From the NCBI GenBank assembly GCA_025937115.1, contig JAICSB010000001.1:1-34504 (forward strand): a stretch of 34,504 nt of DNA. The letters run 5' to 3'. Each line of letters starts with the position of its first letter. Position 1 is the first letter of the stretch. Positions 7,883 to 30,435 of this stretch are shown one piece after another. The stretch is from Pseudonocardiaceae bacterium (GTDB lineage Bacteria; Actinomycetota; Actinomycetes; Mycobacteriales; Pseudonocardiaceae). The translations under genes and the position numbers were made by a program. Below the pieces are notes generated by a model, which was given only the letters and a program-made list of their open reading frames with translations, was not told where the DNA came from and did no database searches.

Positions 7883-8398
7883 TTAGCACGGGGCCGGTCC
7901 TGAACCGTCCGGTCGGTGCGGAATGTTGCACAGGCGGCTGCGTAGCGCCTCCGTGATCGGGGTCTTCTGGCCAGTGCTGGTGGCCAAGGCAACGTACCTG
8001 ACCCAGGCGGCCACCACCGGCCGGTCGGCCACCCGGCCGTCGAAGTCAACGACCATCGAGGTGGTCCCTAGTTCCCGCAAGGACACCGTGATGGCCAGCA
8101 GATCGTCGAACCGCGCGGGAGAGAGATACCGTATGTTGATCTCGGCCATCACGAAGTAGCTGCCGCTTTCGATTATCACGTCGTATGAACCGACGACCGC
8201 GCGCGTCGCCTCGATCATCGCCGCTTCGAAGAAGGCGCCGTAGCGGGCGGCGTGCACAATGCCCTGGTAATCGGTGTCGACAGGACGCACCCGCAACGTG
8301 TGAACATAGCCCTGCGGGTGCGCGCCCTGCTCCTGGGAACTCCTCGTCACCCGGAGATTGTCCCGCAGCAAGAACTGCCGGCGCACACCGGTCACCAT
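7883..8398 (-). CDS. 4-hydroxybenzoyl-CoA-type hotdog acyl thioesterase
   Basis: About 171 residues with one hotdog domain. RVRPVDTDYQGIVHAARYGAF corresponds to the 4HBT/YbgC active-site loop, with the Asp (DTDYQG) that hydrolyses acyl thioesters. The conserved part begins about 30 residues in, so an internal GTG (8350) is a possible alternative start. It is the last gene of the minus-strand train that starts with the flavoprotein at 16750. In a type II polyketide setting it would release the chain from the ACP or remove stalled chains, but the UbiD branch and the KASIII-like proteins offer other release routes. The gap to the preceding gene is 42 bases. Confidence 0.8.
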   Translation of the reverse strand: MVTGVRRQFLLRDNLRVTRSSQEQGAHPQGYVHTLRVRPVDTDYQGIVHAARYGAFFEAAMIEATRAVVGSYDVIIESGSYFVMAEINIRYLSPARFDDLLAITVSLRELGTTSMVVDFDGRVADRPVVAAWVRYVALATSTGQKTPITEALRSRLCNIPHRPDGSGPAPC

Positions 8399-8440
8399 TT
8401 CGGGCCGCTCCGCGTGACCGGTGTTGAGCTGGTGGCCTGG

Positions 8441-9238
8441 TCACAGCGGCTTTCGTCCCCAGGCTGATACAAAGCTCATCGTGGTGAGGACACTACCGAG
8501 ATCGTCGCTGACGCTTTGTATCAAGTTTGCGTCTGCTTCCCCGTATATGCCAAGCTCGATCATGACTGGCACGGTAGCCACCGCGCTCACGCGCTCGAAC
8601 TCGTAATGAGCTTCTCCCGGCCGGGCGATCCTCGTCTCGACCTCGCCGCCGTGCAGTTCTAGGCCGGTTGCCAGGACCAGACCAGGCAGTCTGCGCCCGA
8701 ACCACGGATCAGCTATTTTGGCTTCCGCCAACCCGCTGAGCGCGCGTGCCACCAATGTGTTCATGCGCGAGGCGTCCGCAGGCCCACCGTAGTTCCACAA
8801 CCCGTAATCGCCCTCCTCGATCAGAAACAGGCCGCCGGGTCGCAGGGCAGCGACCATTCGAGCGAGAGCCGCGGTGGGATCAGGCAAATGCATGAGCACT
8901 GCCCGGCAGTGGACCAGATCATAAGTGTCCACCTCGAGGTCGTCGTGTCGGATATCGAGGCGGCGGACCTCCACGCCGACCGGCATCGTTGTCAGGAAAC
9001 GGAGATCGATGTCGGCGGCCAGCACCGAGCCGGTGGAGCCGACTCGCTCATCGAGCCACCTCGCGATAGACCCGTTTCCCGCTCCTACCTCAAGACAGCG
9101 CCATCCACGTGAGACGCCAAGCCGGTCGAGTCGACGGGTGGTCCCCGGATCGTGACAGGCCTCCAGCAGTTGCAGGCGACCGAGTTCCGTGTCGGCATCT
9201 ATGTCAGCGGCTACATACTGCCGCTCGTCACCCTGCAT
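8441..9238 (-). CDS. Class I SAM-dependent methyltransferase
   Basis: About 265 residues. LEVGAGNGSIARWL is SAM motif I, VLAADID carries the acidic residue that binds the ribose hydroxyls, and YDLVHCRAVLMHLPDP and LRPGGLFLIEEGD are motifs of the small-molecule (UbiE/Methyltransf_11-like) group. The frame extends 12 codons upstream, but ATG 9238 (MQGDERQYV) has AAGGG eight bases before it and is preferred. It lies in the tailoring part of the cluster behind the P450, and would methylate an oxygen, nitrogen or carboxylate of the product. The target atom is unknown. Confidence 0.85.
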   Translation of the reverse strand: MQGDERQYVAADIDADTELGRLQLLEACHDPGTTRRLDRLGVSRGWRCLEVGAGNGSIARWLDERVGSTGSVLAADIDLRFLTTMPVGVEVRRLDIRHDDLEVDTYDLVHCRAVLMHLPDPTAALARMVAALRPGGLFLIEEGDYGLWNYGGPADASRMNTLVARALSGLAEAKIADPWFGRRLPGLVLATGLELHGGEVETRIARPGEAHYEFERVSAVATVPVMIELGIYGEADANLIQSVSDDLGSVLTTMSFVSAWGRKPL

Positions 9239-9434
9239 CGGTTTACCCTTCATCGAAGGCCGTAGATGTAGCACCCGTGGGCAGACCGAATCGCGTACCC
9301 GGCCGCGGGCCCGGCGAGGACGACGATCACTCAGATTAGTGCCGCGGACCAGCGCGCCCGACGCCGCGACATCGGTGAAGGCTACCCGGATCCAAGCGGT
9401 GGTGTTCGTCGCGCATCGGGGCCGGCCCGGGTGG
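9239..9434. other. 196-base gap between P450 and methyltransferase genes
   Basis: The longest break in the minus-strand gene train. It contains the perfect palindrome GGGCCGGCCC (9419-9428) just past the P450 stop, and GC-rich self-complementary sequence near 9300, but no T-run and no convincing open frame. It may hold a weak terminator or internal promoter; nothing firmer can be said. Confidence 0.4.
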
Positions 9435-10625: not shown

Positions 10626-10637
10626 AACCGCCGTCCT

Positions 10638-10664
10638 CTTGATAGATAGTGGTTAGTAGATAAG
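10638..10664. promoter_or_regulatory. AT-rich element upstream of the P450 gene
   Basis: The 54-base MFS-P450 gap holds an AT-rich stretch ending in AGATAGT (10644-10650). In the gene direction it reads ACTAACCACTATCT and matches 11 of 14 positions with AGTTACTACTATCT upstream of the MFS gene. A shared operator or internal promoter is possible. Confidence 0.3.
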
Positions 10665-10679
10665 CGTGCGCAGACCGGA

Positions 10680-12146
10680 CTACGCGGATGCGGTGTGGCC
10701 GGTTGCGCGCCTCCGGTGAAGCATCAGGGCAATCACCATCGAGCAAACCCCTAATGCCGCAGCGACTATCCAGCCGTGCTGGAAGGCCGCCTTCACCTCC
10801 TCCGCGCCGCGCGGTGCGCCAAGTATGGCGATGAACACCGAGATGCCGATCACGAAGCCCACCTGCCGGACCATCAGGTTGATGGCGGATCCGGTAGCGA
10901 ACGAGGCTGCGGGCAGGTCCCGGGTGACAATCGTGACCAGGGTGGTAGTGGCGAGGATGGAGCCGACGGCGGTGAGCAGCAGCCCGGGAAGCAGCATCAC
11001 GGGATAGTCGGGCGTCACCTGCGCGGTGATTGCCCACCAGGCGGTTCCGGCGGTGAGAAGTCCGCACCCGAGCGCGGCGACGACCGGCGCCCCAAGGCGT
11101 TTCACCAGGGCCCCGGAGCGCAGTGCCACTACGGGCATGAGGAAGGTGCCGGGGGCCATGGCCAGGCCGATCTGTAGGGCGGAGTAGCCCCAGACGTTCT
11201 GGCTCCACAGCATGAGAGAGAACAACATCACAGAGAAGCAGGCGCTAAAGACCAGCGCGGCGAGGTTGGCCATGCTAAACGAGCGGATGCGTAGCAAGCT
11301 GAATGACACCACCGGGCTGGGATGTCGTGCCGACCGACCGAAGAACGCGGCCGAGACAACGAGCCCGCCGACGAGACAGCCGATAACCTGAGCAGAGTTC
11401 CATCCCCAGTCCGGCGCCTTGACTAGGCCAAGGGCGATGAGACTGACGCCAACAATCAGCAGCAGCGAGCCGAACAGGTCGGGTAGCGGCCCCTGGGAGC
11501 CCTTCGGTGTCTCGGGCAAGACGCGACGACCCACCACGAAGCTCACCACCCCGACCGGAAGATTGATGAGGAAGATCCAGCGCCAGTCAAGATAGGCCAG
11601 GGCTCCACCGATGATCGGCGCCAGTGCCGCGGCCACCGCGCCCGCAGCCGTCCAGGCGCGCACCGCGCCGCCGCGCCGTTCCTCGGGATAAGCCGCGAGC
11701 AGCAGGCCGAGCGAAGTAGGGACGAGCGCAGCGGCGCCGGCGGCCTGCAGCACGCGCGCGGCCACCAGCATCGCGACGTCCTGCGATACGGCGCACAGGA
11801 CGGAAGCGAAGGTGAACAGGGCGAGTCCCAGCAGGAAGCCGTTCTTCCGGCTGGCGCGATCAGACAGCCGCCCCGCCGGTACGAGTAGCGCGGCGAACAC
11901 GATCGAGTAGGCGTTGAGAGTCCAAGACAGGCCTGCGGCTGTGCTACCCCGGAACTCATGTTCGATCACCGGGAACGCGACGTTGACGATCATCATATCC
12001 AGGCTCGACATGATGAAACCGGCGCAGACCACTCCAAAGATCAGCCTTCGAGTCCGGACGGTGGCCGGCGTTTCCCGAGCCTCCTCGATGGCGGATGCGG
12101 GCGGGTCAGGCCTAGTGGCCATCGGTGCAGGTTCAGCATGAGTCAT
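10680..12146 (-). CDS. MFS drug/metabolite exporter (DHA2, EmrB/QacA type)
   Basis: 488 residues with about 14 hydrophobic helices, the DHA2 pattern. After a short cytoplasmic N-terminus, the first helix runs into NVAFPVIEHEF, followed by SWTLNAYSIVFAALL and the loop motif GRLSDRASRKN between helices 2 and 3. QxxGAAALVPTSLGLLL matches the helix-5 region of drug:H+ antiporters. In a biosynthetic cluster its likely job is proton-driven export and self-resistance. Start ATG with an excellent AAGGAGG 10 bases upstream. Codon 465 is TTA (10752-10754). It lies directly behind the sigma gene, with an inverted repeat in between. Confidence 0.92.
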   Translation of the reverse strand: MTHAEPAPMATRPDPPASAIEEARETPATVRTRRLIFGVVCAGFIMSSLDMMIVNVAFPVIEHEFRGSTAAGLSWTLNAYSIVFAALLVPAGRLSDRASRKNGFLLGLALFTFASVLCAVSQDVAMLVAARVLQAAGAAALVPTSLGLLLAAYPEERRGGAVRAWTAAGAVAAALAPIIGGALAYLDWRWIFLINLPVGVVSFVVGRRVLPETPKGSQGPLPDLFGSLLLIVGVSLIALGLVKAPDWGWNSAQVIGCLVGGLVVSAAFFGRSARHPSPVVSFSLLRIRSFSMANLAALVFSACFSVMLFSLMLWSQNVWGYSALQIGLAMAPGTFLMPVVALRSGALVKRLGAPVVAALGCGLLTAGTAWWAITAQVTPDYPVMLLPGLLLTAVGSILATTTLVTIVTRDLPAASFATGSAINLMVRQVGFVIGISVFIAILGAPRGAEEVKAAFQHGWIVAAALGVCSMVIALMLHRRRATGHTASA

Positions 12147-12183: not shown

Positions 12184-12204
12184 AGATAGTAGTAACTAAC
12201 TACT
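12184..12204. promoter_or_regulatory. Operator-like inverted repeat in front of the MFS gene
   Basis: AGTAGT-AACTA-ACTACT (12188-12204) is a perfect 6-5-6 inverted repeat in an AT-rich island, overlapping the sigma-factor stop codon and about 40 bases upstream of the MFS ATG. It is the size of a small dimeric regulator's site. The cluster's TetR protein is the obvious candidate ligand, by inference only. Confidence 0.45.
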
Positions 12205-12769
12205 TAGTCAACGCCAGCAACAGCGTGCGTAGCCGGGCCAGCGCCCGTTGCCGTAGCGGCCCGATCGAGCCGCGTGGCAGGCCGAGAGTGAGGCTGACCT
12301 GGTCATAACTCGGGGCCGGGTCGACCATCAGGACACCCAGCAGCGTCTGATCCCGCTCTGGCAGCTTGCGGAACGCGGCGAGCACTTCGACGTGGTACGC
12401 GCGACTCACCACCAGGTCGTCTAGGCCGGCATCACCCAGCTCGGGCCGGTCCAGCACGGCGCTCTCACCGACGGGCACGTGCCGACGTTCGCGCTCGATG
12501 TGCTTGAGGCACTCCCGCCGGGCAGCAGTGGTGATCCATGCGGCCATCCGGTCCGGCGAGCGGACTTTGTCCAGGTGCTGCACGGTTCGCATCCAGGTCA
12601 TCTGGTACACGTCGTCCCGGTCGGCTGATGACAGCCGATATGACCGCACAATGGTCCAGACCAGAGGTGAGAACTGGTCCACCAAGGTGCGCCAAGCCTG
12701 CTGGTCGCCTGTTCGACAGGCGGCAACCAGATGAGTGATGTCGTTGTCCAAGTACGCGGATTTCACCAC
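12200..12769 (-). CDS. ECF-type RNA polymerase sigma factor
   Basis: 189 residues. Region 2 is seen in FSPLVWTIVRSYRLSSADRD and VYQMTWMRTVQHLDKV; region 4 in FRKLPERDQTLLGVLM and YDQVSLTLGLPRGSIGPLR, the helix-turn-helix that reads the -35. Short linker, no C-terminal extension. Two tandem GTG codons (12764, 12767) could serve as start; AGGAG stands eight bases before the first. It lies 22 bases after the KS-beta gene, inside the biosynthetic train, with no anti-sigma gene next to it. It may direct transcription of cluster promoters; its own recognition sequence could not be identified. Confidence 0.9.
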   Translation of the reverse strand: MVKSAYLDNDITHLVAACRTGDQQAWRTLVDQFSPLVWTIVRSYRLSSADRDDVYQMTWMRTVQHLDKVRSPDRMAAWITTAARRECLKHIERERRHVPVGESAVLDRPELGDAGLDDLVVSRAYHVEVLAAFRKLPERDQTLLGVLMVDPAPSYDQVSLTLGLPRGSIGPLRQRALARLRTLLLALTK

Positions 12770-12791: not shown

Positions 12792-13946
12792 TCATCTCAG
12801 TGATCCACAGGCCCAGCGGGTGTGGTGGCTCACGTCATCGGCTGCTCGGCGGACGACCAGGCAACCAACGTTGCCGTCGTGCCCGGCCGACGTGACCAGC
12901 GCGACGCCGCCCGCGGTCGGATCGGCCCGCCAGACCGCCAGCAACCCGGCGATTTGTAGCGCCCCGCTCGCACTAAAGGTTTCACCGATCACTTCGGCCA
13001 CTCGAATCTGCCGGATAGGCAGGCCACCGAGCGCGGCCTCGACGCCGCGTTCCTCGATTCGCTCCAGTCCCCTTTGCCCGGTGGCACCCAACGAGACGGT
13101 GGTGACCCCGTCCGCACCCACGCCACTTCGTCGCAACGCGCGCTCGATGCACTTGGCCAATCCGCCGGTCAGGCTGGTTCGCTCATCCGCGGCGCCGCCC
13201 GATCCGACTTCACAGGCCAGCAACTCGGCCAGCGGCGGCCGACCGGCGGCCGCTGCAGCCTGTGGTGTCTCCACGACGAATACCGCGCAGCCCTCGCCCA
13301 GCGATGCATTCGGCGCGAGCTTGGCCGACAGGTGCCACGCCCACGCCGACTGGGCCGACAGTTCCTCAACCCCGCCGACCAGCGCTCGATCGACATGGCC
13401 GGCCGTGATGACGTTGCGGGCATACCGGATTGCGGCAAGGCTGGACACCCGGCCACCGGCGAGGGTGGCGTTCACCCCGCGCAGGGAGTTCCAAATCGCG
13501 ATCTGGCTGGCGCAGCAGTTCATCACCGAGTTGGGAAACAGGTTCGCTCGCACCAGGTATGGCTTGTCCTGCACCAGCGTGTCGCGGCAGAACTCGCTGG
13601 AGCTGCGAATGCTGCCGGTGCTGGTACCGATCATCACGCCGGTGCGATCTCGATGTTCATCGGCGAGCGGATGTGCCAGTCCGGCCAGTGCCCGGTTGCA
13701 GGCGATGAGCGCGAGCTTGGTTGTCCGGTCGAGGTGCCGGACGCCCTTGCGACCCAGGTACTTCTCGACGGTGAGTTCAGGCACCGCGGATAGCTGGATC
13801 GACGGCAGGTCCTCAGCGATCGCGGCGAAGTCGGCCCGCTGGTGGAATGCACCGCCACCTAGCGCGGCCAGGCCGATGCCCGCCGGCGAAACCACCCCAC
13901 AGCCAGTGATCATGAGCGGTTGAATCGCCGTCACTGGAGCGGTCAC
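12792..13946 (-). CDS. Ketosynthase-beta / chain-length-factor-like protein
   Basis: 384 residues with a thiolase-fold ketosynthase body (MITGCGVVSPAGIG at the N-terminus, VMIGTSTGS, LAGGRVSSLAAI at the nucleophile elbow). By alignment to FabF, the active-site cysteine position is arginine (AGGRVSS for ATACTSG), the first catalytic histidine is absent (LGATGQRG for HGTGTPTN), and the second is glutamate (IGETFSAS for IGHTMGAA). It therefore cannot condense, and should be the KS-beta partner that forms a heterodimer with the upstream ketosynthase and sets chain length. Its GTG start overlaps the KS-alpha stop (GTGA), as is usual for KS-CLF pairs, giving equal synthesis. Confidence 0.85.
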   Translation of the reverse strand: MTAPVTAIQPLMITGCGVVSPAGIGLAALGGGAFHQRADFAAIAEDLPSIQLSAVPELTVEKYLGRKGVRHLDRTTKLALIACNRALAGLAHPLADEHRDRTGVMIGTSTGSIRSSSEFCRDTLVQDKPYLVRANLFPNSVMNCCASQIAIWNSLRGVNATLAGGRVSSLAAIRYARNVITAGHVDRALVGGVEELSAQSAWAWHLSAKLAPNASLGEGCAVFVVETPQAAAAAGRPPLAELLACEVGSGGAADERTSLTGGLAKCIERALRRSGVGADGVTTVSLGATGQRGLERIEERGVEAALGGLPIRQIRVAEVIGETFSASGALQIAGLLAVWRADPTAGGVALVTSAGHDGNVGCLVVRRAADDVSHHTRWACGSLR

Positions 13947-15166
13947 GATGCCCTCCCGAGGATGGTGATCGCGTTGTTGCCACCGAAGGCAAACCCGTGG
14001 TTCTGCACGATTCGCGGCGTGGCAGGGCGTGCCTGCCCGCAGATCGGGTCCACACCCGGCCCCAGAGCCGGATCAATCTCAGTGACGTTCGCGGTGGGCG
14101 GCAGAAACCCATCGGACAGCGCGAGACAGCAGATCAGGGCGCCGAATCCGCTCGCCGCGCCCATCGTGTGGCCGATCATCGATTTGATCGAGCTGATCGG
14201 TGGAAGGCGATCGCCGAACACCTCACGCACGGCCTTGATTTCGGTGGCATCGTTGGTCGGGGTACCGGTGCCGTGCGCGCAGATGTAGTCGATCTCTTCG
14301 GGCCGCACCCCAGCGTTGCGGTGCGCCGCCCTGATGCACTCGGCGATGCTGGTGGGATCCGGTGAGACGGGGTGCGTGGCGTCGCAGTTGATGCCATAAC
14401 CGAGCACCTCGGCGTAGATCCGCGCGCCGCGGGCCACGGCATAATCGAATGGTTCGAGTAACAACGCGACGCCACCTTCGGCGGTCAGGATGCCGGACCG
14501 GTTGGCGTCGAATGGCCGGCATACCGATTCGGCGAGCGCGCCGAGCCGGTAGAAGCCGGCGTGCGCCCACCGGTTGATCGAGTCGGCGCCCCCACTGATC
14601 ATGAAGTCCGCCTCCCCGGTGCGGACCATGTCGTAGGCATAGCCCAGCGCGTAGTTGCTCGCCGAGCACGCCGTTGCGATAGTCTGCGCGTCGCCGGTAA
14701 GACCGAGTTCCGCGTTGACCGCCGTGGCGATGTTGCTGGCCGGGACCTGCTGGATCAGCGCTGGGTCGAGCCCTTTGAAGCCCCCTCGCAGCCATTCCCG
14801 AGTAAGCGCTTCGATGACTCCGGATTCGCCGCTGGTGGTTCCGATCGCGGACCCGGCCTGCACGGTGGACAGCTGCGCTGGGTCAATGTCGGCGTCTTGG
14901 ACCGCGAGCCTGGCAGCCGAGGCCGCGAAGAGGGCACTGCGGCCCCACCTCGCCACGTCGAGCCTGCATAACAACCGTTCCGGTGCGAAGTCGTGGACCT
15001 CACCGGCAACGGTGTAGGGGAATCCGCTGGCGTCGAACCCGCGGATCTCCGACACTCCGCTGCGTCCCTCACGAATCGCCGCCGCGAAGGCTTGGGCGCC
15101 GGTCCCCAGGCTGCTCACTGCGCCGAGACCGGTGACCGCGACCGCTCGAGGCGCGCTGTCAAGCAT
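13943..15166 (-). CDS. Beta-ketoacyl-ACP synthase (KS-alpha of a type II PKS, FabF-like)
   Basis: 407 residues. Complete catalytic set: Cys167 in TACSASNYA, His298 in HGTGTPTND, Lys328 in SSIKS and His333 in GHTMGAASG. It performs decarboxylative condensation of malonyl-ACP with the growing acyl chain. The nucleophile motif TACSASNYALG is not the CTSG type of aromatic polyketide ketosynthases, which together with the neighbouring ketoreductase and dehydratases points to a reducing, polyene-forming type II system. ATG 15166 overlaps the ACP stop by eight bases and has GGAAGG just upstream; an upstream in-frame extension is not conserved sequence. Pairs with the KS-beta gene. Confidence 0.92.
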   Translation of the reverse strand: MLDSAPRAVAVTGLGAVSSLGTGAQAFAAAIREGRSGVSEIRGFDASGFPYTVAGEVHDFAPERLLCRLDVARWGRSALFAASAARLAVQDADIDPAQLSTVQAGSAIGTTSGESGVIEALTREWLRGGFKGLDPALIQQVPASNIATAVNAELGLTGDAQTIATACSASNYALGYAYDMVRTGEADFMISGGADSINRWAHAGFYRLGALAESVCRPFDANRSGILTAEGGVALLLEPFDYAVARGARIYAEVLGYGINCDATHPVSPDPTSIAECIRAAHRNAGVRPEEIDYICAHGTGTPTNDATEIKAVREVFGDRLPPISSIKSMIGHTMGAASGFGALICCLALSDGFLPPTANVTEIDPALGPGVDPICGQARPATPRIVQNHGFAFGGNNAITILGRAS

Positions 15167-15452
15167 CAGAGGCCTTCCAGTCCGCGTTGCGCGCGACAAT
15201 GGAGTACACGGTGGACAGGTTGATCATCTCCGGCAGCGCGTCCTGCGGGACGTTCACCCCTAGGTCGCGTTCGATACGGGCGAGGATCTCGATGGCCAAC
15301 AGCGAGTCGGCTTCGTGGTCATCGACGAAGCTGCTGGTATCGGTGAGCTCACCGGGCTCCAGCTCTAGAACTTCGGTAACAATGTTTCGCAGCTGCTCGC
15401 GACGCCGGACGTCGATGGTGGTGGTGGTGGTGGTGGTGGTCGTCTGAGGCAT
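15159..15452 (-). CDS. Acyl carrier protein
   Basis: 97 residues, one carrier domain. The phosphopantetheine serine is Ser50 in EADSLLAIEILARIE; the residue before Asp is alanine, where many ACPs have glycine. Helix I (REQLRNIVTEVLEL) and helix III are in the expected places. The oddity is the N-terminus MPQ followed by nine threonines, encoded by a trinucleotide repeat, which is presumably a flexible tail. It lies between the flavoprotein and KS-alpha genes, and is the only ACP in the window, so it should carry the polyketide chain for the KS, ketoreductase and dehydratases. Confidence 0.9.
   Translation of the reverse strand: MPQTTTTTTTTTIDVRRREQLRNIVTEVLELEPGELTDTSSFVDDHEADSLLAIEILARIERDLGVNVPQDALPEMINLSTVYSIVARNADWKASDA
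15416..15440. repeat. Trinucleotide (TGG/ACC) microsatellite inside the ACP gene
   Basis: About eight uninterrupted copies of a 3-base unit encode the poly-threonine tract of the ACP N-terminus. Slippage here would change the threonine number without breaking the frame. Confidence 0.9.
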
Positions 15453-22445: not shown

Positions 22446-22625
22446 ATGAGAGCCGTGGAAGCCACCGAGCCGGCAGACGATGAGTTGCTGGCAGACCTGC
22501 AAGCGGCCGCCGGCCAGGTGCCGACCGAGCTGCGGGAGACGGTCCTTGGTTTGCTGACGGTTACCAGCTTAGGCTCGCCACCGGATCTCCGGGTCGGAGC
22601 ATGGGGTCCAGCGCACCGAAGGTGA
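22446..22625 (+). CDS. Possible small protein downstream of accC
   Basis: A frame of 59 codons from ATG 22446, with GGAG five bases upstream; the same frame is open from GTG 22398, which overlaps the accC stop as GTGA. The middle ([16 protein letters not shown] and [10 protein letters not shown]) could form two amphipathic helices. I recognise no family; it does not look like the acyl-CoA carboxylase epsilon subunit. It overlaps the 3' end of the convergent polymerase gene by 65 bases, which weakens the case. Confidence 0.25.
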
Positions 22626-23919
22626 GCATGGGGCCGGGTCCGGAGATCCGCGTTTCGAACCGCACCGTGACGACGCCGCCCCCCACGCCCTGAACCCAAC
22701 CGTGACCGTGCTCGGAGTGGTTCACATCCCGGCCGACCCACCAATCGATATCCGGCCTGTCTCCAGGCGTTGCCCGCGGCTGGTCAGGCTGCGACTCCTG
22801 GACAGCCGTAGCCTCCAAGTCAGAAAACAACGCGCGCTGCTCCCCGCAAGACAGGCCGGCCATCGCCACGCCGACCAACCGGATCGGACCAAGCTCGGCC
22901 GAGTCAGGCAGCAGACCCTGCGCTATCCCGGCGAGCGTCTGCTTGTCCGCGACCGCGTGCGGAAGTGTCTTCGACCGGGTCACCGTCCTCATGTCCGCGG
23001 TACGCAGCTTGAGCACCACTGTGCGAGCGGCTCGACCGTCCGCGGTCAGCCGCACGTGCGCGGCTTCCGCGCTGGCCAACACAGCAGCGCGGAGATCGGC
23101 CGTGGTCACCAAATCAGTCGGGAAGGTGGTCTCCGCACTGATCTGCTTGGTCTCGCCGCGTTCGGCCACCGGGCGATCGTCGATGCAACGGGCCAACCGG
23201 AGCAGGCTCACGCCGACGACCTGGCCGAGCAGCGAGCCGATCTCAGCTTCATCCATAGCGGCCAGGCTGCCAATCGTGTCGATGCCCAGCCGGCGCAGTT
23301 TCGCCTCCGCTACCGGCCCTATTCCCCACAGCGACCGAACCGGCAGCGGCGCCACAAGCGTGCGCTCGGTGCCATGCCTGACTACCAGCAGACCATCTGG
23401 TTTGGCCAAGCCAGAGGCGATCTTGGCGAGCTGCTTGCCCGAGCCGCCGCCGATCGACGCCACCAAGCCGGTCTTGGCCAGCAATCGCGCCCGCAGCACC
23501 CGGCAGAATGACTCGACCTCGGCCGCGCTGGCGCCGGCCAGTTCGACCGGCTCGCCAAACGCCTCGTCCAGCGCGACCTGCTCGAGCGCTGGGACCACCT
23601 CGCGGACCAGCGTGAACACTCGCTCGCTGACCAACTTGTACACGCCGAACCGGGGCGGCAGCACCACCGCACTGGATCCGACCAACCGGCGGGCCTGCCG
23701 CATCGGCATAGCCGAGCGGGCCCCGAAACCGCGGGCCTCGTAGCTCGCGCCAGCCACTACCCCGCGCGGCCCGGTGCCACCCACCAGTACCGGGCGACCG
23801 CGCAGGGTCGGCCGGGTGAGCTGCTCGACCGAGGCGAAGAACGCGTCCATGTCCAGGTGAAGCACCCACCGCCGGCTCCGGCCTGGCGCTGACACCTCTT
23901 GATCCGACTGGGCGCCCAT
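22561..23919 (-). CDS. dinB: Y-family DNA polymerase (DNA polymerase IV, DinB-like)
   Basis: 452 residues. [13 protein letters not shown] supplies the first metal-binding aspartates, QVALDEAFG the catalytic Asp-Glu pair, and [21 protein letters not shown] and [17 protein letters not shown] the palm/thumb and HhH parts. The long C-terminus contains the little-finger domain and a glycine-rich tail. It copies across damaged bases with low fidelity. It lies four bases after a thioesterase gene and converges with the carboxylase operon. It has no obvious role in the polyketide pathway; either it is a resident gene trapped between cluster parts or it marks a junction. The usual SIDEAY motif reads ALDEAF, but the acidic pair is intact. 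Confidence 0.92.
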
Positions 23920-23923
23920 GACT

Positions 23924-24409
23924 TCAGTCTGGACCTCGGGCGCCAGGGCGCGGACGGATCATGCAGGTCACTCGGCACGAGCAGAGGAGGCGGTCTCGCC
24001 CGTCGACCACCTGGATATCGTAGGTCGCCAGTGTCGAGCCGAGGTGCAGAGCGGTCGCCACGCCGTGTACCACGCCCGATCGTGCCGACCGGTGATGAGT
24101 TGCGCTCACTTCGGTACCCACCGCGATCCGATGCGGACCTGCATGCAGCACGGCTGCGGTGGAGGCGAGCGTCTCGGCAAACGCGATGGAAGCTCCGCCG
24201 TGCAGCAGGCCATACGGTTGGGTATTTCCGTCCACCGGCATCGTGCCGACGACTCGAGGTGCCCGGGCCTCGACAATCCGAATGCCGAGCTTCCAGTAGA
24301 GTCCGCCGGCGCCGAGACCGCTGGCGCGCATGAGCGTCTCCAGCTCCGCAGGAAGACCATCGGGCAACCCATGGATGGGCTGCAGTAGCTGCTCAGTCTG
24401 GGTAATCAC
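23924..24409 (-). CDS. PaaI/EntH-type hotdog acyl-CoA thioesterase
   Basis: About 161 residues. The loop [20 protein letters not shown] is the signature of the PaaI/MenI/EntH group, with the conserved His-Gly-Gly and the catalytic glutamate (AET). Members cleave aryl- or acyl-CoA (DHNA-CoA, for example) or proofread carrier proteins. GTG 24409, with GAGAGGAAG upstream, is chosen because the conserved part begins soon after; ATG 24442 in the same frame is possible. It lies between the TetR gene and dinB on the same strand. It may be a second release or editing enzyme for the cluster, or unrelated housekeeping. Confidence 0.82.
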
Positions 24410-24500
24410 GCGCTTCCTCTCCCTTCCCACTTCTACGAACATAGATCCGAGTCGGGTCGTGCAGATACACCGGAGCAGGCTACGGACCCTAGAATCCTGC

Positions 24501-25046
24501 TTACCAGTTTTCCCGGGGCGTCGAGGTGAGCAGGGCAGCGGCCCATGGTTGGTCAAAATTCTCGAGATCCATCGCGGCAGCGGCATTGAGCAGCATGCCT
24601 ACGGCGATGAATCGTTTGACTCGCTCAGGTGAAACTCCTGATAGTCTTTCCGCCGTTTTCCACAGCTCGCCAAACTCTTCCCGAACTGTTTTCTGAATCT
24701 CCGGATCGTCACATGCGGCGAATCCGTGCAACATGACGAGCAGGAGCGTGCGATCTTTGAGCAACTCAACATACGTGGTTCCCATGGCGAACAGGGCGGC
24801 TCCCCCGGAAAGTCCCGCCGCGGACTGGACGAACGACCTGATTATCCGACGGTAGACGTTCTGCACACATTCGATGAAGAGTTGCTTCTTTGTACCGAAT
24901 ATCCGGAAGACATACGGTTGGCTGATGTCCGCACGGCGAGCGATTGTCTCCGCCGATGTGCCGTGCATGCCGTTGAGTGCGAACTCCTCCGACGCAATCG
25001 CGAGCAATTGCTCTCGTCGAGCTTGAGCGGTCATCCGACGGGTCAT
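24501..25046 (-). CDS. TetR-family transcriptional regulator
   Basis: About 181 residues. The N-terminal helix-turn-helix is ARREQLLAIASEEFALNG, then TSAETIARRADISQPYVFRI and FGTKKQLF, the canonical TetR DNA-binding pattern; the rest is an all-helical ligand-binding part. Three in-frame ATGs (25055, 25046, 25034) are possible and none has a strong ribosome-binding site; the middle one is given. It is divergent from KASIII-1 with only 90-100 bases between them, so it probably controls that promoter and its own. The gene has a somewhat lower GC content than its neighbours. Confidence 0.88.
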   Translation of the reverse strand: MTRRMTAQARREQLLAIASEEFALNGMHGTSAETIARRADISQPYVFRIFGTKKQLFIECVQNVYRRIIRSFVQSAAGLSGGAALFAMGTTYVELLKDRTLLLVMLHGFAACDDPEIQKTVREEFGELWKTAERLSGVSPERVKRFIAVGMLLNAAAAMDLENFDQPWAAALLTSTPRENW

Positions 25047-25145
25047 GCAAGACATGAAAGCACGACCGGCGGCGGCCGCTGTATCTGCGGTCCCCGAGGC
25101 CGGATCTGTATGACCGAAACACCACCACACACCTGAAGGACTGCC

Positions 25146-26180
25146 ATGCGACTTGGCGACGGCCTGGCCCTCGATGCGGTCGCTACCTGGACCCCGGCGC
25201 GCCGAGAGACGGTGGCTGACATGGTCGCGGCTGGCCGTGTGACGGTCGACGAGGCTGCCGATTTCGGCCTCACCGAGGTTCCGGTATCCGATTTGGCCGC
25301 ACCGGACATGGCGGTTCGCGCCGCCCGGCGAGCGCTCCTGGCGGCGGCATACGAGCCGGCGCGGCTCGGACTTGTCGTGCACGCGTGGACCTACCACCAG
25401 GGCCACGACTTCTGGTCACCGCCGCACTACATCGCAAAGAGTCTCGGCGCGCGCAACGCCCTACCTTTCGGTGTGCAGCAAATGTGCAACGCCGGTGCGA
25501 TGGCGCTCGGCATCGCGGCCGGTCGACTGATCGTCGATCCGGATCTGGACGTTGCCCTGATCACAACGGCAGATCGGTTCGGTCTGCCGGGGTTCGACCG
25601 GTGGAGAGGTGACTACGCGGTGGTGTACGGCGATGCAGGTACCGCAGCGCTGTTGCGCCGTCGCGATCCCGGTGAGTCCGGTGGGCTGGTCCTGCGGGCA
25701 CTAGCCTTCGCCACCGCGGCCGACTTCGAGGTGATGTACCGGGGCCGAGACGAATTCAGCCCGGCACCAGGGTGGCACAGCAAGCACATCGACGTCCGGC
25801 GGACCAAGAAGGCCTACCTTGAAACTTACGGCAACATGGACAACTTCAAGGTTGCAGCCACGGAATGCATAAGAAACGTAGTAACGCAGGCTGTAGGCGA
25901 TGCCGGCATCGCCACCACTGATTCACGGATTCGCTATGTAGTGCTGCCCAGGCTAAGTGACAGCGTGCTCAACCTCATGTACGTCCCCATCCTAGAGGGC
26001 TGGGTCAAGGGCGACGTGCTGAAACTGCGCGAGTGCAGCGGACACCTCGGCGCCGGAGATATGATCGCGAATATCGCCTACATTTCGGATTCTGCGTTGT
26101 TAAGGGCCGGCGATATCGCCCTCGCGATCGGCGGGGGCGGCGGTTTCACCTGGTCGTGCGCCGTCATCCAAGCCGGCTGA
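25146..26180 (+). CDS. KASIII-like acyltransferase with Cys-His-Asp residues (CerJ type), copy 1
   Basis: 344 residues, thiolase fold, with the family hallmark WTYHQGHDFWSPPHYIA. The nucleophile is Cys114 in QQMCNAGAM. The HQAN histidine of true KASIII is replaced (LPRLSDS), and where KASIII has the catalytic asparagine there is SGHLGAGD, giving His300 and Asp305. This Cys-His-Asp set with a His-Asp spacing of five is that of CerJ-type KASIII homologues, which transfer acyl groups to hydroxyls or carriers rather than condense. The ATG has GAAGGA upstream. Codon 319 is TTA (26100-26102). It is followed 46 bases later by a SnoaL-like gene, and is paralogous to the protein at 29395-30435. Substrate unknown. 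Confidence 0.85.
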   Translation: MRLGDGLALDAVATWTPARRETVADMVAAGRVTVDEAADFGLTEVPVSDLAAPDMAVRAARRALLAAAYEPARLGLVVHAWTYHQGHDFWSPPHYIAKSLGARNALPFGVQQMCNAGAMALGIAAGRLIVDPDLDVALITTADRFGLPGFDRWRGDYAVVYGDAGTAALLRRRDPGESGGLVLRALAFATAADFEVMYRGRDEFSPAPGWHSKHIDVRRTKKAYLETYGNMDNFKVAATECIRNVVTQAVGDAGIATTDSRIRYVVLPRLSDSVLNLMYVPILEGWVKGDVLKLRECSGHLGAGDMIANIAYISDSALLRAGDIALAIGGGGGFTWSCAVIQAG

Positions 26181-26226
26181 CGGTGCGTGTGCTCCGGCGG
26201 ATCAACAACTGATGGGTGGACTACCG

Positions 26227-26685
26227 ATGTCTTTACCGAGCGGGAACACCGAAAACACCGTACTTCGCCAAAATGCTGCTGCCCTGTGGGACCGCTGGCT
26301 GGTCATGTGGAACGAGAATCCAGAAATAGCGCACGAAATCATCGGTCCCGGTTATCGGGTACATCTGCCCACCGTGGGAGCGACTATCGACCCAGCACAG
26401 ATACGAGACGCCGCCACGATGGCTGACTGGGTTCGCGCCTTCACTGGCAAGTTCGCTGATCTCCGATATCGAACTGACTTCGGCCCTGTGTCGGACGGTA
26501 ATCTGGCGGTTTTCCGCTGGTCTGGTACCGCGATCTGCCTTGGCCGGACCGGATGGCCCATGGATATGGCAGGCGAGCCGATCACCTTCGTAGGAGTGGA
26601 CATCCTGCGAATAGCAGACGGTCGAATTGTCGAGTGCTGGACGCAGGGATCGGTAACCGATCGCGCGGGTCACTCGCCCGCGTGA
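26227..26685 (+). CDS. SnoaL-like (NTF2-fold) protein, copy 1
   Basis: About 152 residues, a single SnoaL/ketosteroid-isomerase-like domain. Segments such as ALWDRWLVMWNENPEIAHEI and VGVDILRIADGRIVECW are the family's opening helix and closing strand-turn. The family includes polyketide cyclases, hydroxylases and isomerases, and many members of unknown function. ATG 26227 has GGTGGA upstream; ATG 26212 in frame is also possible. It is paralogous to the convergent protein at 26710-27174 (matching ALW..W...WN, RLHLP/RVHLP, IRD, GVDILR..DGRI.E.W). A hairpin at its stop codon separates the two. Confidence 0.82.
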   Translation: MSLPSGNTENTVLRQNAAALWDRWLVMWNENPEIAHEIIGPGYRVHLPTVGATIDPAQIRDAATMADWVRAFTGKFADLRYRTDFGPVSDGNLAVFRWSGTAICLGRTGWPMDMAGEPITFVGVDILRIADGRIVECWTQGSVTDRAGHSPA

Positions 26686-26695
26686 CCGAGTGACC
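26668..26695. terminator. Hairpin between the convergent SnoaL-like genes
   Basis: A perfect 9-bp stem (GGTCACTCG at 26668-26676, CGAGTGACC at 26687-26695) with a 10-base loop spans the stop of copy 1 and lies 15 bases before the end of copy 2. There is no T-run. It could serve as terminator for both directions. Confidence 0.5.
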
Positions 26696-26709
26696 GCCCG
26701 AACGCTGGG

Positions 26710-27174
26710 TCAGGGTGTCGGGAGCGACGCGCTCAGCTGCACGTATACATCGAGTAGGTCGTCGGAGAGCCAGTACTCTGCGATGCGCCCGTCTTCCAGA
26801 CGCAGGATGTCCACGCCACGTAGGGTGACACGCGTGCCTGGTGCGGCCGACGCGCTCGCCGGTCTGCCCGACTGCCAGATCCCTTGGTAGATCCACCGGC
26901 AAATGATGTGCTCATCTGTGACAAACGGTCCCAGCTCAGTGGCGATCAGGGAGCCGTCGGCGTAGGAGGAGCGATAGGCTGCGATCCACGCCACGAGGTC
27001 CACGCGGTCTCGTATCGTCGCAGGATCCGGCATCCCGTACTTGGGCAGGTGTAGCCGAACTTTGTCGGCGACAATCTTGTCGGCTATCGCGTAATTACCG
27101 TTCCAGAGCTCCATCCAATGTTCCCACAGCGCGACCTGTGGTTGTGTTGTCGGAGAATTTCCGGTTTCAATCAC
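26710..27174 (-). CDS. SnoaL-like (NTF2-fold) protein, copy 2
   Basis: About 154 residues. The frame is open to 27234, inside the UbiD gene, but GTG 27174 with GGGGAGGA immediately upstream is the convincing start, 20 bases after the UbiD stop. ALWEHWMELWNGNYAIADKI, RLHLPKYGM and RGVDILRLEDGRIAEYW match copy 1 along the whole length. It is last in the train KASIII-2, UbiX, UbiD, SnoaL-2. It could act as a cyclase, dehydratase or isomerase on the substrate of its KASIII/UbiD neighbours; catalytic residues are not evident to me. Confidence 0.82.
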   Translation of the reverse strand: MIETGNSPTTQPQVALWEHWMELWNGNYAIADKIVADKVRLHLPKYGMPDPATIRDRVDLVAWIAAYRSSYADGSLIATELGPFVTDEHIICRWIYQGIWQSGRPASASAAPGTRVTLRGVDILRLEDGRIAEYWLSDDLLDVYVQLSASLPTP

Positions 27175-27194
27175 GAGTCCTCCCCGTGAGCGTT

Positions 27195-28691
27195 TTAGTC
27201 GAGCCCCGCCGACGTGGCGGAAGATGTGTCCCACACAGCGAGCGCCCGCCGCTGGATCTCAGGGGAGAAATTCTCTTTGAACGCTGTACTGCGTGGGCGC
27301 TTCGCCGCATCGTGGTCCTGCAGGCAGTCGTAAGCGACCTTGGGTCCACCGGCGCCGAATTTTTCCTCGTCAGAGTAGAAGATATGCAGCGGTGTAACGC
27401 GCTGGTCTTCAATGAGCAGCTGCCCGCGGGTGGGATGATTACGGGTGTGGAAAGCCCAGAGCAAGTCTCGCAGATCGGTGGGGTCGATGTCATCGTCGAG
27501 CACCATGATCCGGGTGATCCAGTAGCCCACTTTCGGGCGAAGCACGGTCTGGGCGATGGCCCGAGTCAGCATCCGGGTACTGGTGTACGGACTGCGCCTC
27601 TTCCAGTCGCGTGGCACGGTGACCACAAGTAGGTTGATGGCGCTCTCCGGGACGATCCATACGTTGGTGATCGGCAGATCTGCGGAACGTAGGGTGCACA
27701 GTGCCTCGGCAGCGTAACTGATCCCGACTGCGGTGTGGTCCTCCTCGACTGGCTTTCCAGCGGACACCACTGGTAGAATTGGATCATCGCGATGAGTGAT
27801 CGCACTGATGTGGAAAACTGGCCACGGTGCAGGTTTGCCCGTGAGGTAGCCAAAGTATTCACCCATCGGCCCTTCGAGCGCGGTTTCATCGCACGCTACA
27901 TGGCCCTCGATGACGATTTCGGCGGTCGCGGGGGCCTCCAGATCGACCGTCTTGCAACGCACAACTTCGAGTGGCTCGCCGAAGTAGGCACCGAGATAGC
28001 CGGCTTCGTCCACGCCGGAGGGTAGGCCCATTCCGCACGCGAACGGGATGGCCGGCTCGCATCCCTGGACAAGCGCGAACGGCATCGGCTCACCGCGGTC
28101 CCGCCACATCTGAAAGATTTTTCCGACATCCTGCAGTGGGCGTATCATGCCTACCATGGTCTGCCCGTCCAGCATCATCACCCGAGCGATCGACCAGTTC
28201 GTCCACGTCCCGTCGGGGGTGCGGACCACAATTGCGCCCCAGGTATTGATGTAGCGGCCTCCGTCCCCGTCATGAATGAGTGGCACCGGAAATTTTTTCA
28301 AGTCGGCCTCTGTACCCGGTAACACGTTCTGCTGGCACGGGCCAGAATCCACAATGACCGGCGGTATCGGGATCAGCTGCTTGGCCGTCGCCAGTTCCTC
28401 GACGATCTCCAACGGGTGCGTCGCCGGGTCCAGGCCCAGCGCCATCGCCACGCGGGCGTAGCGAGCTTCGGGAAGCGAGCTCAGCGCGCCAGGCGCGCCG
28501 AGCACCCGGAAACCGGGCTCGTACCCGCGAATGTTGGTAAACAGTGGTGCCGGGTCGCGGTTCTCGACACTCCATCGGATCACCGCGCCGATCTCGAGAT
28601 GCGTGTCGACCTCGGCGCGGACCTCGCGCAGATCGCCCAGACCGGCCAGTGCGGCTAGGTGCTCACGCAGGCTCTTCACGTGCTTTTTCAT
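27195..28691 (-). CDS. ubiD: UbiD-family prenyl-FMN-dependent decarboxylase
   Basis: 498 residues, a full-length UbiD/Fdc1-type enzyme. Asn165 and Arg170 (TNWSIAR) and Glu273/Glu278 (EGPMGEYFGY) have the same spacing as the prFMN-binding and catalytic residues Asn168, Arg173, Glu277 and Glu282 of Fdc1. These enzymes reversibly decarboxylate alpha,beta-unsaturated or aromatic acids by 1,3-dipolar cycloaddition with prFMN. The ATG overlaps the ubiX stop (ATGA), so cofactor and enzyme synthesis are coupled. In this cluster the expected substrate is a conjugated polyenoic or aromatic acid, whose loss of CO2 would leave a terminal alkene or unsubstituted ring position. TtnD of tautomycetin is a precedent for a polyketide UbiD. 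The menaquinone pathway is unlikely from context. Confidence 0.92.
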   Translation of the reverse strand: MKKHVKSLREHLAALAGLGDLREVRAEVDTHLEIGAVIRWSVENRDPAPLFTNIRGYEPGFRVLGAPGALSSLPEARYARVAMALGLDPATHPLEIVEELATAKQLIPIPPVIVDSGPCQQNVLPGTEADLKKFPVPLIHDGDGGRYINTWGAIVVRTPDGTWTNWSIARVMMLDGQTMVGMIRPLQDVGKIFQMWRDRGEPMPFALVQGCEPAIPFACGMGLPSGVDEAGYLGAYFGEPLEVVRCKTVDLEAPATAEIVIEGHVACDETALEGPMGEYFGYLTGKPAPWPVFHISAITHRDDPILPVVSAGKPVEEDHTAVGISYAAEALCTLRSADLPITNVWIVPESAINLLVVTVPRDWKRRSPYTSTRMLTRAIAQTVLRPKVGYWITRIMVLDDDIDPTDLRDLLWAFHTRNHPTRGQLLIEDQRVTPLHIFYSDEEKFGAGGPKVAYDCLQDHDAAKRPRSTAFKENFSPEIQRRALAVWDTSSATSAGLD

Positions 28692-29329
28692 AACCGGCTT
28701 CCGGCCTCTTTGGCGGACGGCACCGGCCAACGCGGGAAAGCCTCGGTGTCGATATCGAACAGGTCCAACACCCTGCCGATGGTCTGGTCCACCAGCTCGT
28801 CGACGGTGGCCGGACGAGTGTAGAAGGCCGGTACCGGGGGCGCGATGATGCCACCGTTCTCGGTGACCGTGGCCATGTTGCGCAGGTGGGTCAGTGTCAA
28901 CGGAGTCTCGCGGACCATCAACACCAGTCGGCGCCGCTCCTTCAGCGTCACATCCGCGGCCCGGGCAATCAGCGTGTCGCAGGTGCCGGTCGCGATCTCG
29001 GCAAGGGTCTTCACTGAACACGGCGCGACGACCATCCCTCGGGTGCGAAACGAGCCGCTGGCCAGCGACGCGCCCACGTCGTCGGGGGAGTAATAGGTAT
29101 CCGCCAGGGCGAGTACCTCTCTCGCAGTCATGTCGCTTTCGTGCGCCAGGGTCAGCCGGGCCGCACGCGACATCACCAGATGAGTCGTTACTTCAGTGGC
29201 GCGGAGCGCTTGAAGTATCCGAATACCGTAGACGATACCCGTTGCGCCACTTATCCCCACGATGATCCTCGGCGAGGCCGGCGACCATCGATGATTGCCG
29301 AGCAGGGACCTGTCCCGAATCATGAACAT
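28688..29329 (-). CDS. ubiX: UbiX-family flavin prenyltransferase
   Basis: About 213 residues. RIIVGISGATGIVYGIRILQAL is the FMN-binding start, and VVAPCSVKTLAEIATGTCDTLIARAADVTLKERR and LVLMVRETPLTLTHLRNM are the prenyl-phosphate and flavin contacts of UbiX/Pad1. It joins dimethylallyl phosphate to FMN to make the cofactor of UbiD. ATG 29329 follows GGAGGAACGA; the GTG at 29341 lies inside that ribosome-binding site and is less likely. Relative to most UbiX proteins there are about 20 extra N-terminal residues. It sits between KASIII-2 (53-base gap) and ubiD. Confidence 0.93.
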   Translation of the reverse strand: MFMIRDRSLLGNHRWSPASPRIIVGISGATGIVYGIRILQALRATEVTTHLVMSRAARLTLAHESDMTAREVLALADTYYSPDDVGASLASGSFRTRGMVVAPCSVKTLAEIATGTCDTLIARAADVTLKERRRLVLMVRETPLTLTHLRNMATVTENGGIIAPPVPAFYTRPATVDELVDQTIGRVLDLFDIDTEAFPRWPVPSAKEAGSRL

Positions 29330-29394
29330 TCGTTCCTCCACCGGTTAACCGTCGCAGTATTCGGCGACTCACTCGACGCTGTCGTCCAGCTGTC

Positions 29395-30435
29395 TTAGTT
29401 CCCGGGCTTTTCGACGATCGCGGTGGACCAACCAAAGCCGCCTCCCGCGCCAGCGATGATCGCAATCTCACCGGGACGGAGCATTCCACTTTCCACGATG
29501 TCTGCCATGTTTGCGAGCATGTCTCCTGAGCCCAGGTGTCCGGTCCGGCCACCGAGCAGGATGTGCTCGGCTTTGAGATCGCTCTCCACAACGTTGAGGT
29601 ACATCAACTCGATGAGCCGGGGACCCATACGAGGCACCGCGACAAACCGGATCCGTGGATCGTCCGCCTCCAGTTCCGCCTCGACCAACGCCTGATTCAG
29701 CGACGCGCGGACATGTAAACGCGATGCTGCACCGAAGGAGTCCTTGCCGTGCACGTCATAAAATTGTTTCCTCTGGTCGTTTGTGTCCCAGTTGTCTTTA
29801 CCGAGCATCGGTGATGGCGTAAACGGCGCATCTCCGCGTTCCATCCCCTCGAGCCAGCTCGCCGAGGAGTGGGTCATCGAGAGCAGGAGAAGATCGTCCG
29901 AGGTCCCGTCCCGACGGTGCAGCAACGCGGCGGTGGCGCCGTCGCCGTATCCGATGTCGGGGTGCATCGTCCATCGATCCCAGACTGGCGCGCCGTACTT
30001 CTCCGCGGTGGTGACCAGCGCGGCGGACGTTTCTTCATCGGCGAGGAGGCCGGTCGCCGCCAGGTAAAGGCCCGTTGCGCCGCCCGTGCACATTGCCTGG
30101 ATGCCGAACGGGAGGGCCGAAGCCGGGAGGTGAAGTTCATTCGCGATGTAGTGAGCAGGTGACCACTTGTCATGGCCCTGGTGGTAGACCCACGCATGCG
30201 CCAACATGCCGATCTTAGCTGAGTCCCAGCGGGCCCGAGTCAATGCCTTACGCCCGGCTAGGACGGCCATCTGAGGTGGGGCCAGATCCGCGGACACCGG
30301 AAGCGCGGTCACTCCCTGCCGTCCAACCGCGCTCGCATTCAACAGACCGGCGCGGACCGCATATTCCACGGTCTCACAAGTTTCCGGAATCCAGGTGGTT
30401 ACCGCCTTGATTCCCAGGCCGCCGTCGAACCTCAT
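29395..30435 (-). CDS. KASIII-like acyltransferase with Cys-His-Asp residues (CerJ type), copy 2
   Basis: 346 residues, closely similar in plan to the protein at 25146-26180: AWVYHQGHDKWSPAHYIA, nucleophile Cys116 in QAMCTGGAT, and TGHLGSGD with His300 and Asp305 at the same numbers. The HQAN position again reads VPRMGPR, without histidine. It is therefore expected to transfer an acyl group rather than condense with malonyl-ACP. ATG 30435 has GAGGAG upstream; an upstream in-frame extension crosses an inverted repeat and is not conserved. It heads the train with ubiX, ubiD and SnoaL-2. Whether copies 1 and 2 work as a pair on one substrate or on two substrates is not known. Confidence 0.85.
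   Translation of the reverse strand: MRFDGGLGIKAVTTWIPETCETVEYAVRAGLLNASAVGRQGVTALPVSADLAPPQMAVLAGRKALTRARWDSAKIGMLAHAWVYHQGHDKWSPAHYIANELHLPASALPFGIQAMCTGGATGLYLAATGLLADEETSAALVTTAEKYGAPVWDRWTMHPDIGYGDGATAALLHRRDGTSDDLLLLSMTHSSASWLEGMERGDAPFTPSPMLGKDNWDTNDQRKQFYDVHGKDSFGAASRLHVRASLNQALVEAELEADDPRIRFVAVPRMGPRLIELMYLNVVESDLKAEHILLGGRTGHLGSGDMLANMADIVESGMLRPGEIAIIAGAGGGFGWSTAIVEKPGN

Follow-up and report, generated by a model that had tools for sequence, protein, structure and literature searches.

A reducing type II polyketide synthase cluster with a UbiX/UbiD pair in a Pseudonocardiaceae bacterium and its relatives in other actinobacteria

The first 34,504 nucleotides of contig JAICSB010000001.1 (assembly GCA_025937115.1, Pseudonocardiaceae bacterium), hereafter the window, carry between positions 7883 and 30435 the genes of a type II polyketide synthase (PKS) together with an acetyl-CoA carboxylase, two KASIII proteins (K3a and K3b), two SnoaL-fold proteins (SNa and SNb) and a UbiX/UbiD pair. 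The locus is a real single cluster, apparently undescribed within the literature searched. It belongs to a familiar general type, for which its predicted final step is unusual, and its product class is likely. Our preferred reading, to which we give about an even chance, is that the acid end of a polyenoyl chain built by a reducing type II PKS loses its carboxyl group at a late stage, giving a terminal alkene. In the proposed pathway, the cluster's own carboxylase would supply malonyl-CoA to the acyl carrier protein (ACP), and the ketosynthase subunits (KS-alpha and KS-beta), the ketoreductase (KR) and a two-subunit dehydratase (DH1 and DH2) would cycle condensation, reduction and dehydration to yield a polyenoyl-ACP. 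A hotdog thioesterase would release the free acid, and UbiD, with the prenylated flavin mononucleotide (prFMN) made by UbiX, would at a late step decarboxylate the alpha,beta-unsaturated acid end. The two Cys-His-Asp KASIII proteins may move acyl groups onto or off the ACP, while a flavoprotein, the SnoaL-fold proteins, a cytochrome P450 and a methyltransferase may tailor the chain.

To our knowledge, the products of the reducing type II systems described so far are polyenoic acids or amides. If the preferred reading is true, prFMN decarboxylation as the last step of a type II system would constitute a genetic route to terminal polyenes, for which K3b would be a marker. Gene families were called by Pfam and NCBIfam profile scans of the window proteins, and these scans found the families named in a first-pass annotation of the window at or near the positions given there.

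The type II PKS core

KS-alpha (13943..15166), KS-beta, or chain length factor (CLF; 12792..13946), and the ACP (15159..15452; Pfam PP-binding 2.6e-12, with a DSL motif) are all encoded on the minus strand. Among solved structures, 6kxd_A (363 bits) gives the top match for KS-alpha, and 6kxd_B (164 bits) that for KS-beta. The 6kxd chain sequences are also present in 6kxf, which a figure legend of PMC7949117 gives as the ishigamide KS/CLF. In a pairwise alignment, KS-beta has an Arg at the column of the KS-alpha active-site Cys, and thus lacks this residue.

The phylogeny of KS-alpha was built twice: a first tree of 59 rows, and a second tree to which Streptosporangiaceae rows were added. The 59-row tree omits twelve near-duplicate or partial KS-alphas (L085, L074, L081, L080, L077, L073, L078, L079, L076, L003, L099 and L102), as well as matches shorter than 300 residues or containing a stop. 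In this tree, the window KS-alpha falls into a clade (support 99/99) with Iga11 of the ishigamide PKS, apart from FabF and apart from a 100/100 clade of seven aromatic-type KS-alphas, the label "aromatic" being our own, based on a DpsC-like neighbour gene and the 32-36% identity of these seven proteins. Iga11 represents a sister line of the window KS-alpha rather than its nearest clade. Without the Streptosporangiaceae rows, the sister KS-alpha is that of Paractinoplanes deccanensis (99/91); when they are included, the nearest KS-alphas are those of the genomes G1322, G1142, G1274, G1360 and G1281 (98/94), and P. deccanensis comes next (85/70). The KS-alphas of G132 and G105 are nested near the family, and the stretches fetched around them contain no homologue of the flavoprotein, KASIII, SnoaL-fold or UbiD proteins. 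The placement of KS-alpha supports the prediction of a reducing type II PKS over an aromatic-type system or a FabF enzyme. The first-pass annotation had proposed a reducing type II PKS with its own carboxylase and suggested the grouping of KS-alpha as a check; the proposal agrees with the tree and with the accD, accA and accC models, all of which score over cut-off.

UbiX and UbiD

UbiD (27195..28691), a predicted prFMN-dependent decarboxylase, and the flavin prenyltransferase UbiX (28688..29329; NF004685 and TIGR00421 over cut-off) are encoded on the minus strand. The best solved match of UbiD is 6da6 (494 bits), which we take to be TtnD of tautomycetin biosynthesis, followed by 7abn/4ip2 (PA0254/HudA, 381 bits) and Fdc1 (358 bits). 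Its best NCBIfam model is BagN/FevL (NF041219), with 528.4 bits against a cut-off of 1000, and the models for the phenylphosphate carboxylase alpha subunit and VdcC score 279 and 195 bits. A passage of PMC6541611 describes TtnD-TtnC as the UbiD-UbiX pair of the tautomycetin pathway, and according to a passage of PMC6644310, TtnD and SmdK work on 2,4-diunsaturated acids. Because UbiD is nearest to 6da6 and BagN/FevL, the substrates of TtnD and SmdK favour an enoic acid as its probable substrate. A UbiX/UbiD pair is also present on a plasmid of YIM 121038 (UbiD 57% identical), where the fetched stretch holds no KS homologue.

One cluster in a family of eleven

We compared eleven clusters, namely those of the window, P. 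deccanensis (G001), the Streptomyces genome G1085, S. mangrovisoli, S. macrolidinus, S. sulphureus, S. kronopolitis, G990, G837, G900 and G940. Five of the ten relatives were found with K3a as the query and five with the flavoprotein (FAD), so that the sharing of K3 or FAD is partly due to selection; the sharing of KS, sigma, KR, UbiX, UbiD and K3b is free of this effect. Absences carry little weight where a cluster is cut by a contig end (the G1085 contig is 27 kb long) or covered within about 10 kb of one gene; the clusters of S. mangrovisoli, S. macrolidinus, S. sulphureus and S. kronopolitis are covered only near the KASIII gene or to contig ends.

Homologues of FAD, the ACP, KS-alpha, KS-beta, an ECF-sigma-like protein and KR, together with at least one SnoaL-fold and at least one KASIII homologue, are common to all eleven clusters. 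UbiX, UbiD and K3b occur in the same three (the window, P. deccanensis and G1085), and DH1 and DH2 in one, the window. The gene order in G1085 is K3a, SNa, TetR, MFS, K3b, UbiX, UbiD, KR, phosphopantetheinyl transferase, sigma, KS-beta, KS-alpha, ACP, FAD, hydrolase, SARP, TetR and SNb. P. deccanensis has, within ~18 kb, K3b, hydrolase, FAD, ACP, KS-alpha, KS-beta, sigma, KR, SNa, K3a, SNb, an AMP-binding protein, MFS, UbiX and UbiD. Since both genomes mix genes that in the window lie in a left (PKS) and a right (UbiX/UbiD) block, UbiD even adjoining KR in G1085, we judge the two blocks of the window to be one cluster and not two neighbours.

Related clusters are found in other soil actinobacteria, and the idea that the gene set is unique was rejected, as 13 of the window's genes also occur in P. 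deccanensis. The core set is thereby present in a named strain, P. deccanensis NBRC 13994.

KASIII, SnoaL-fold proteins and the flavoprotein

K3a (25146..26180, plus strand) and K3b (29395..30435, minus strand) both keep the Cys and the GHLGxGD motif. The first-pass annotation had called them CerJ-type; the subfamily is right, and DpsC is the closer solved relative (151 and 147 bits for K3a and K3b, compared with 120 and 124 for CerJ and 115 and 116 for ChlB3). A tree was built from 61 KASIII rows of the loci examined; in it, K3b forms its own 100/100 clade, the members of which come only from the three UbiX/UbiD clusters, whereas K3a groups with the KASIII proteins of type I PKS cassettes and not with those of other type II clusters (100/98). 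The parts of the cluster are therefore of mixed origin. Two SnoaL-fold proteins are encoded nearby: SNa (26212..26685, plus strand; Pfam SnoaL_2 6.4e-11) and SNb (26710..27234, minus strand, start uncertain; SnoaL_2 2e-9).

The group A flavoprotein FAD (15470..16750, minus strand) has a halogenase-like fold near those of ChlB4 and other halogenases. It lacks both hallmarks of a flavin-dependent halogenase, the catalytic lysine and the GES motif: Asn stands at the column of CndH K76, and CTHY replaces GES. At a threshold of 1e-110, FAD is found in 46 of 394 Streptomycetaceae and 2 of 350 Micromonosporaceae genomes, and eleven FAD neighbourhoods comprise five type II sets, one type I set and five without a KASIII homologue. 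Being widespread and varied in context, FAD alone marks nothing. The combination of K3, FAD and SnoaL was seen at six loci (L001-L004, L071 and L092); in L003 it stands beside a type I module of ketosynthase, acyltransferase, dehydratase, ketoreductase, ACP and thioesterase domains (KS-AT-DH-KR-ACP-TE), so this set pairs with both PKS types.

Chain dehydration and alternative explanations

KR (17046..17786; FabG-like, NF009466 over cut-off, TIGR01830 288.9 bits and just below cut-off) is directly followed on the plus strand by the FabZ-like dehydratase subunits DH1 (17807..18229; Pfam FabA 7.6e-12) and DH2 (18222..18701; FabA 1.5e-6, FabZ model 65 bits and below cut-off). DH1 carries GHYP and ES motifs, and DH2 lacks GHYP. 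All three proteins resemble those of the highly reducing (HR) clusters in G541 and G299, with identities of 59-60% for KR and 37-45% for the dehydratases (42-43% for DH1, 37-45% for DH2), and the G541 pair has the same motifs, GHYP...ES in one protein and ES only in the other. No enoyl reductase was found among the window proteins scanned, KR itself aside, in agreement with the first-pass annotation; KR matches the Pfam family named "Enoyl-(ACP) reductase" because it is a short-chain dehydrogenase/reductase (SDR). We infer the polyene from the window's own KR and DH1/DH2, which resemble those of the G541 and G299 clusters.

Several observations weigh against this reading. DH1 or DH2 homologues were found in none of the ten relative clusters, including the two with UbiX/UbiD, where the UbiD substrate would need another dehydratase. 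The nearest KS-alphas are those of Streptosporangiaceae (80-83% identity), and the stretches fetched around them hold neither a close KR homologue nor any of DH1/DH2; they contain only distant SDR proteins (28-33% identical to KR) and, in G1281, none. The earlier deduction of a conjugated polyene from KR and two dehydratases is weakened by these findings and is no rule for the family, the pair being present in 1 of 11 clusters. UbiD, in turn, scores far below the BagN/FevL cut-off, and a heteroaromatic acid may be its substrate: HudA, a pyrrole-2-carboxylate decarboxylase according to the title of PMC7976604, ranks ahead of Fdc1, which keeps such a substrate in play.

Other dehydratases were sought in the relatives. 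A search with DH1 and DH2 at E up to 1 in P. deccanensis, S. mangrovisoli, S. macrolidinus, S. sulphureus and S. kronopolitis returned short stretches only, of 25 and 27 residues (E 0.34 and 0.91) in S. sulphureus and S. kronopolitis. The gene holding them is weakly hotdog-like (4HBT and MaoC below cut-off in the S. sulphureus piece) and could thus be a dehydratase there. In a search of ten genomes for PF07977, no match was found in G001-G004, and matches were found in G005 and G007, the four of G005 lying off its cluster contig. MaoC-type dehydratase genes (PF01575) are present in the genomes of all ten relatives, often as adjacent pairs; they lie off the cluster contig in seven relatives, and G837 has one ~49 kb from the fetched stretch. 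A host dehydratase could therefore serve in the relatives.

These data bear on three other accounts of the chemistry. The product could instead be a small ring or aromatic acid, with KR acting once, the SnoaL-fold proteins cyclising, the flavoprotein oxidising, the KASIII proteins passing the acyl group on and UbiD decarboxylating a ring acid. ChlB3 and ChlB6 reportedly pass an acyl group on in the chlorothricin pathway, and the kinship of K3a and K3b to ChlB3, CerJ and DpsC, the ChlB4-like fold of the flavoprotein, the missing dehydratase pair in 10 of 11 clusters, the company of K3-FAD-SnoaL with a type I module and the place of HudA among the nearer solved UbiD relatives all fit such a scheme. 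We nevertheless consider it unlikely, as KS-alpha lies outside the aromatic-type clade, UbiD is nearest to 6da6 with a low VdcC model score, and the window does have the dehydratase pair. Rather unlikely, too, is a chain that is reduced and only partly dehydrated. Here the pair would work during part of the cycles, or would be a minor component gained recently, and the product would be partly hydroxylated, its unsaturated acid end being made by a different dehydratase, either a MaoC-type enzyme of the host or a SnoaL-fold protein. This would explain why the relatives retain KR, SnoaL and KASIII without a homologue of the pair, and it accords with the PF07977 results for G001-G005 and with the MaoC-type genes in every genome; the window pair, however, directly follows KR and is similar to the pairs of HR clusters, and host MaoC proteins could equally finish full polyene cycles in the relatives. 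A proposal that goes further than our preferred reading, and that we hold to be doubtful, takes K3b and the TtnD-like UbiD as a dedicated release branch to terminal-alkene polyenes and has SnoaL-fold proteins dehydrate the chain where the FabZ-type pair is missing (P. deccanensis and G1085). The host MaoC dehydratases weaken the idea that SnoaL-fold proteins must do so, and relatives without a FabZ-type pair would offer a clear test of chain dehydration.

Two remaining explanations concern the locus as such. It is very improbable that the locus is made up of two adjacent clusters, so that the reducing type II PKS and carboxylase on the left would have nothing to do with the KASIII/SnoaL/UbiX/UbiD group on the right. 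A DNA polymerase IV gene (22561-23919) does lie between the blocks, K3a groups with type I cassettes, and the Streptosporangiaceae (StrACC) clusters hold the core and, in four of five, the carboxylase without the right block; yet P. deccanensis and G1085 combine genes of both, and the TetR gene adjoining K3a recurs in 7 of 10 relatives. Similarly improbable is that the product is a known polyene or polyketide whose cluster lies outside the literature covered. Many subscription papers and the cluster databases were outside the scope of our searches, which targeted this set of genes as well as its individual components and, within the literature they covered, found no published description. The gene set was not recognised by the first-pass annotation either, and this impression stands as regards descriptions, though not as regards uniqueness.

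Comparison with known systems

The preferred reading, a polyenoyl chain decarboxylated to a terminal alkene, combines features of several systems. The ishigamide highly reducing type II PKS (6kxd-6kxf) provides the nearest solved KS-alpha/KS-beta pair, and the window likewise has KR and FabZ-type dehydratases; compared with the ishigamide system, the window adds its own carboxylase, two KASIII proteins, the SnoaL pair and UbiX/UbiD. Decarboxylation of an unsaturated polyketide acid, as in the tautomycetin (TtnC/TtnD) and 9-methylstreptimidone (SmdK) pathways, is suggested by the kinship of UbiD to 6da6, presumably TtnD, but the PKSs of these pathways are of type I, whereas that of the window is of type II. 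Unlike ChlB4 in the chlorothricin ChlB3/ChlB4/ChlB6 relay, the window flavoprotein has neither the halogenase lysine nor the GES motif. According to a passage of PMC9381841, the cinnamoyl-lipid type II PKSs (globisporamic acid, youssoufene) usually carry two or three KS/CLF pairs together with an isomerase. They share KS/CLF, KR and the DH subunit pair with the window, as far as that passage goes, while the window proteins scanned include one KS/CLF pair, and Pfam recognised no polyene isomerase in the window proteins, no isomerase-specific query having been made.

An orphan cluster on plasmid NZ_CP130721.1 of Streptomyces sp. NBC_01296 (gene positions as in G990) shares with the window's family the run hydrolase-FAD-ACP-KS-alpha-KS-beta-sigma and FabG. 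It also has two SnoaL-type genes, an annotated KASIII and a second KASIII-like frame, MFS, TetR and an acyl-CoA carboxylase. This carboxylase, in contrast to that of the window, is of the beta+epsilon type, and no homologue of UbiX/UbiD, the DH pair or the P450 was found in the cluster.

The carboxylase and other genes of the locus

The carboxylase genes follow DH2 on the plus strand and encode a beta-alpha carboxyltransferase fusion (18698..20422; accD and accA models both over cut-off), a biotin carboxyl carrier protein (20429..20959; Pfam Biotin_lipoyl, carrier protein model 90 bits and below cut-off) and a biotin carboxylase (20980..22401; accC 650.7 bits, over cut-off). The "four-part" carboxylase of the first-pass annotation thus has its four functions, in three open reading frames. 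Among the eleven clusters, an E. coli-type carboxylase and the P450 are found in the window only. Carboxylase as a hallmark was rejected, as other carboxylases lie near related cores: E. coli-type enzymes near the closest KS-alphas in four of five Streptosporangiaceae clusters (carboxyltransferase fusion 48-53% identical) and a biotin carboxylase alone in G1274, beta+epsilon types in NBC_01296 and ADI95-16, and a carboxylase-like frame where the G1085 contig begins.

The left end of the cluster, on the minus strand, comprises the hotdog thioesterase, a possible chain-release enzyme (7883..8398; 4HBT, PF03061 4e-14), an S-adenosylmethionine methyltransferase (8441..9274; Methyltransf_11), the P450 (9435..10625; PF00067), an MFS exporter (10680..12146; MFS_1) and the ECF-sigma-like regulator (12200..12769; Sigma70_r2, TIGR02937 over cut-off). 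An alpha/beta hydrolase homologue (query from S. kronopolitis) replaces the thioesterase in all ten relatives. The P450 has 40-41% relatives in four of the five StrACC clusters, the exporter is found at 47-73% in 8 of 10 relative clusters, and the sigma-like gene has a homologue in every one of them (45-60%).

Between the biotin carboxylase gene and the K3a gene lie, on the minus strand, the DNA polymerase IV gene (IMS family, 22561..23919), a second hotdog thioesterase-like gene (23924..24586, start uncertain; 4HBT 1.1e-13) and a TetR regulator (about 24501..25055, start uncertain; TetR_N 3.3e-10), the latter two filling what had seemed a gap at 23.9-25.1 kb. The TetR homologues in the relatives are 39-56% identical. 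Queries with the polymerase found no homologue in the loci scanned, and the second hotdog gene had no match at 1e-4 in the loci searched. This gene (24586-23924), the TetR gene and the sigma-like gene (12769-12200) had been overlooked in the first-pass annotation.

Upstream, a SARP-type regulator (372..3590, plus strand; BTAD, NB-ARC and TPR domains, BTAD 1.7e-40) is possibly part of the cluster, though separated from it by a cfa-type operon; SARP-like genes are found again in relatives of the cluster. The four intervening genes (3557-7869), encoding two cyclopropane-synthase-like enzymes, an amine-oxidase-like flavoprotein and a DUF1365 protein, look like a separate lipid-modifying operon. 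The right flank has an iron-sulfur protein, a Clp_N protein and a dCTP-deaminase-like gene. An Rfam scan of the window yielded no family at gathering score.

Related loci in other genomes

The five Streptosporangiaceae clusters (L111-L119) contain the KS-alphas closest to that of the window, and two of them, G1281 and G1322, read in detail, show, by eye, a glycosyltransferase-like gene, an ABC transporter and a flavoprotein. KASIII pairs near a DAAO-like flavoprotein (by eye) were seen at L013, L016 and L021, which form a separate orphan system; L016 and L021 also have a small ACP-like gene (by eye), and L016 a protein with a weak, below-cut-off class II tRNA-synthetase match. Related KS-alpha/KS-beta clusters occur at L065, L066 and L130; AfsA and HAD genes, as in butyrolactone pathways, were found in L065, and both are annotated in L130, a linear plasmid of Streptomyces sp. 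ADI95-16. In G837, G900 and G940 (L088/L099, L091/L100 and L090/L102), the type II core is accompanied by genes for a LuxC-type acyl reductase and for an AMP-binding protein, each identified from one tested example; this suggests release as an aldehyde.

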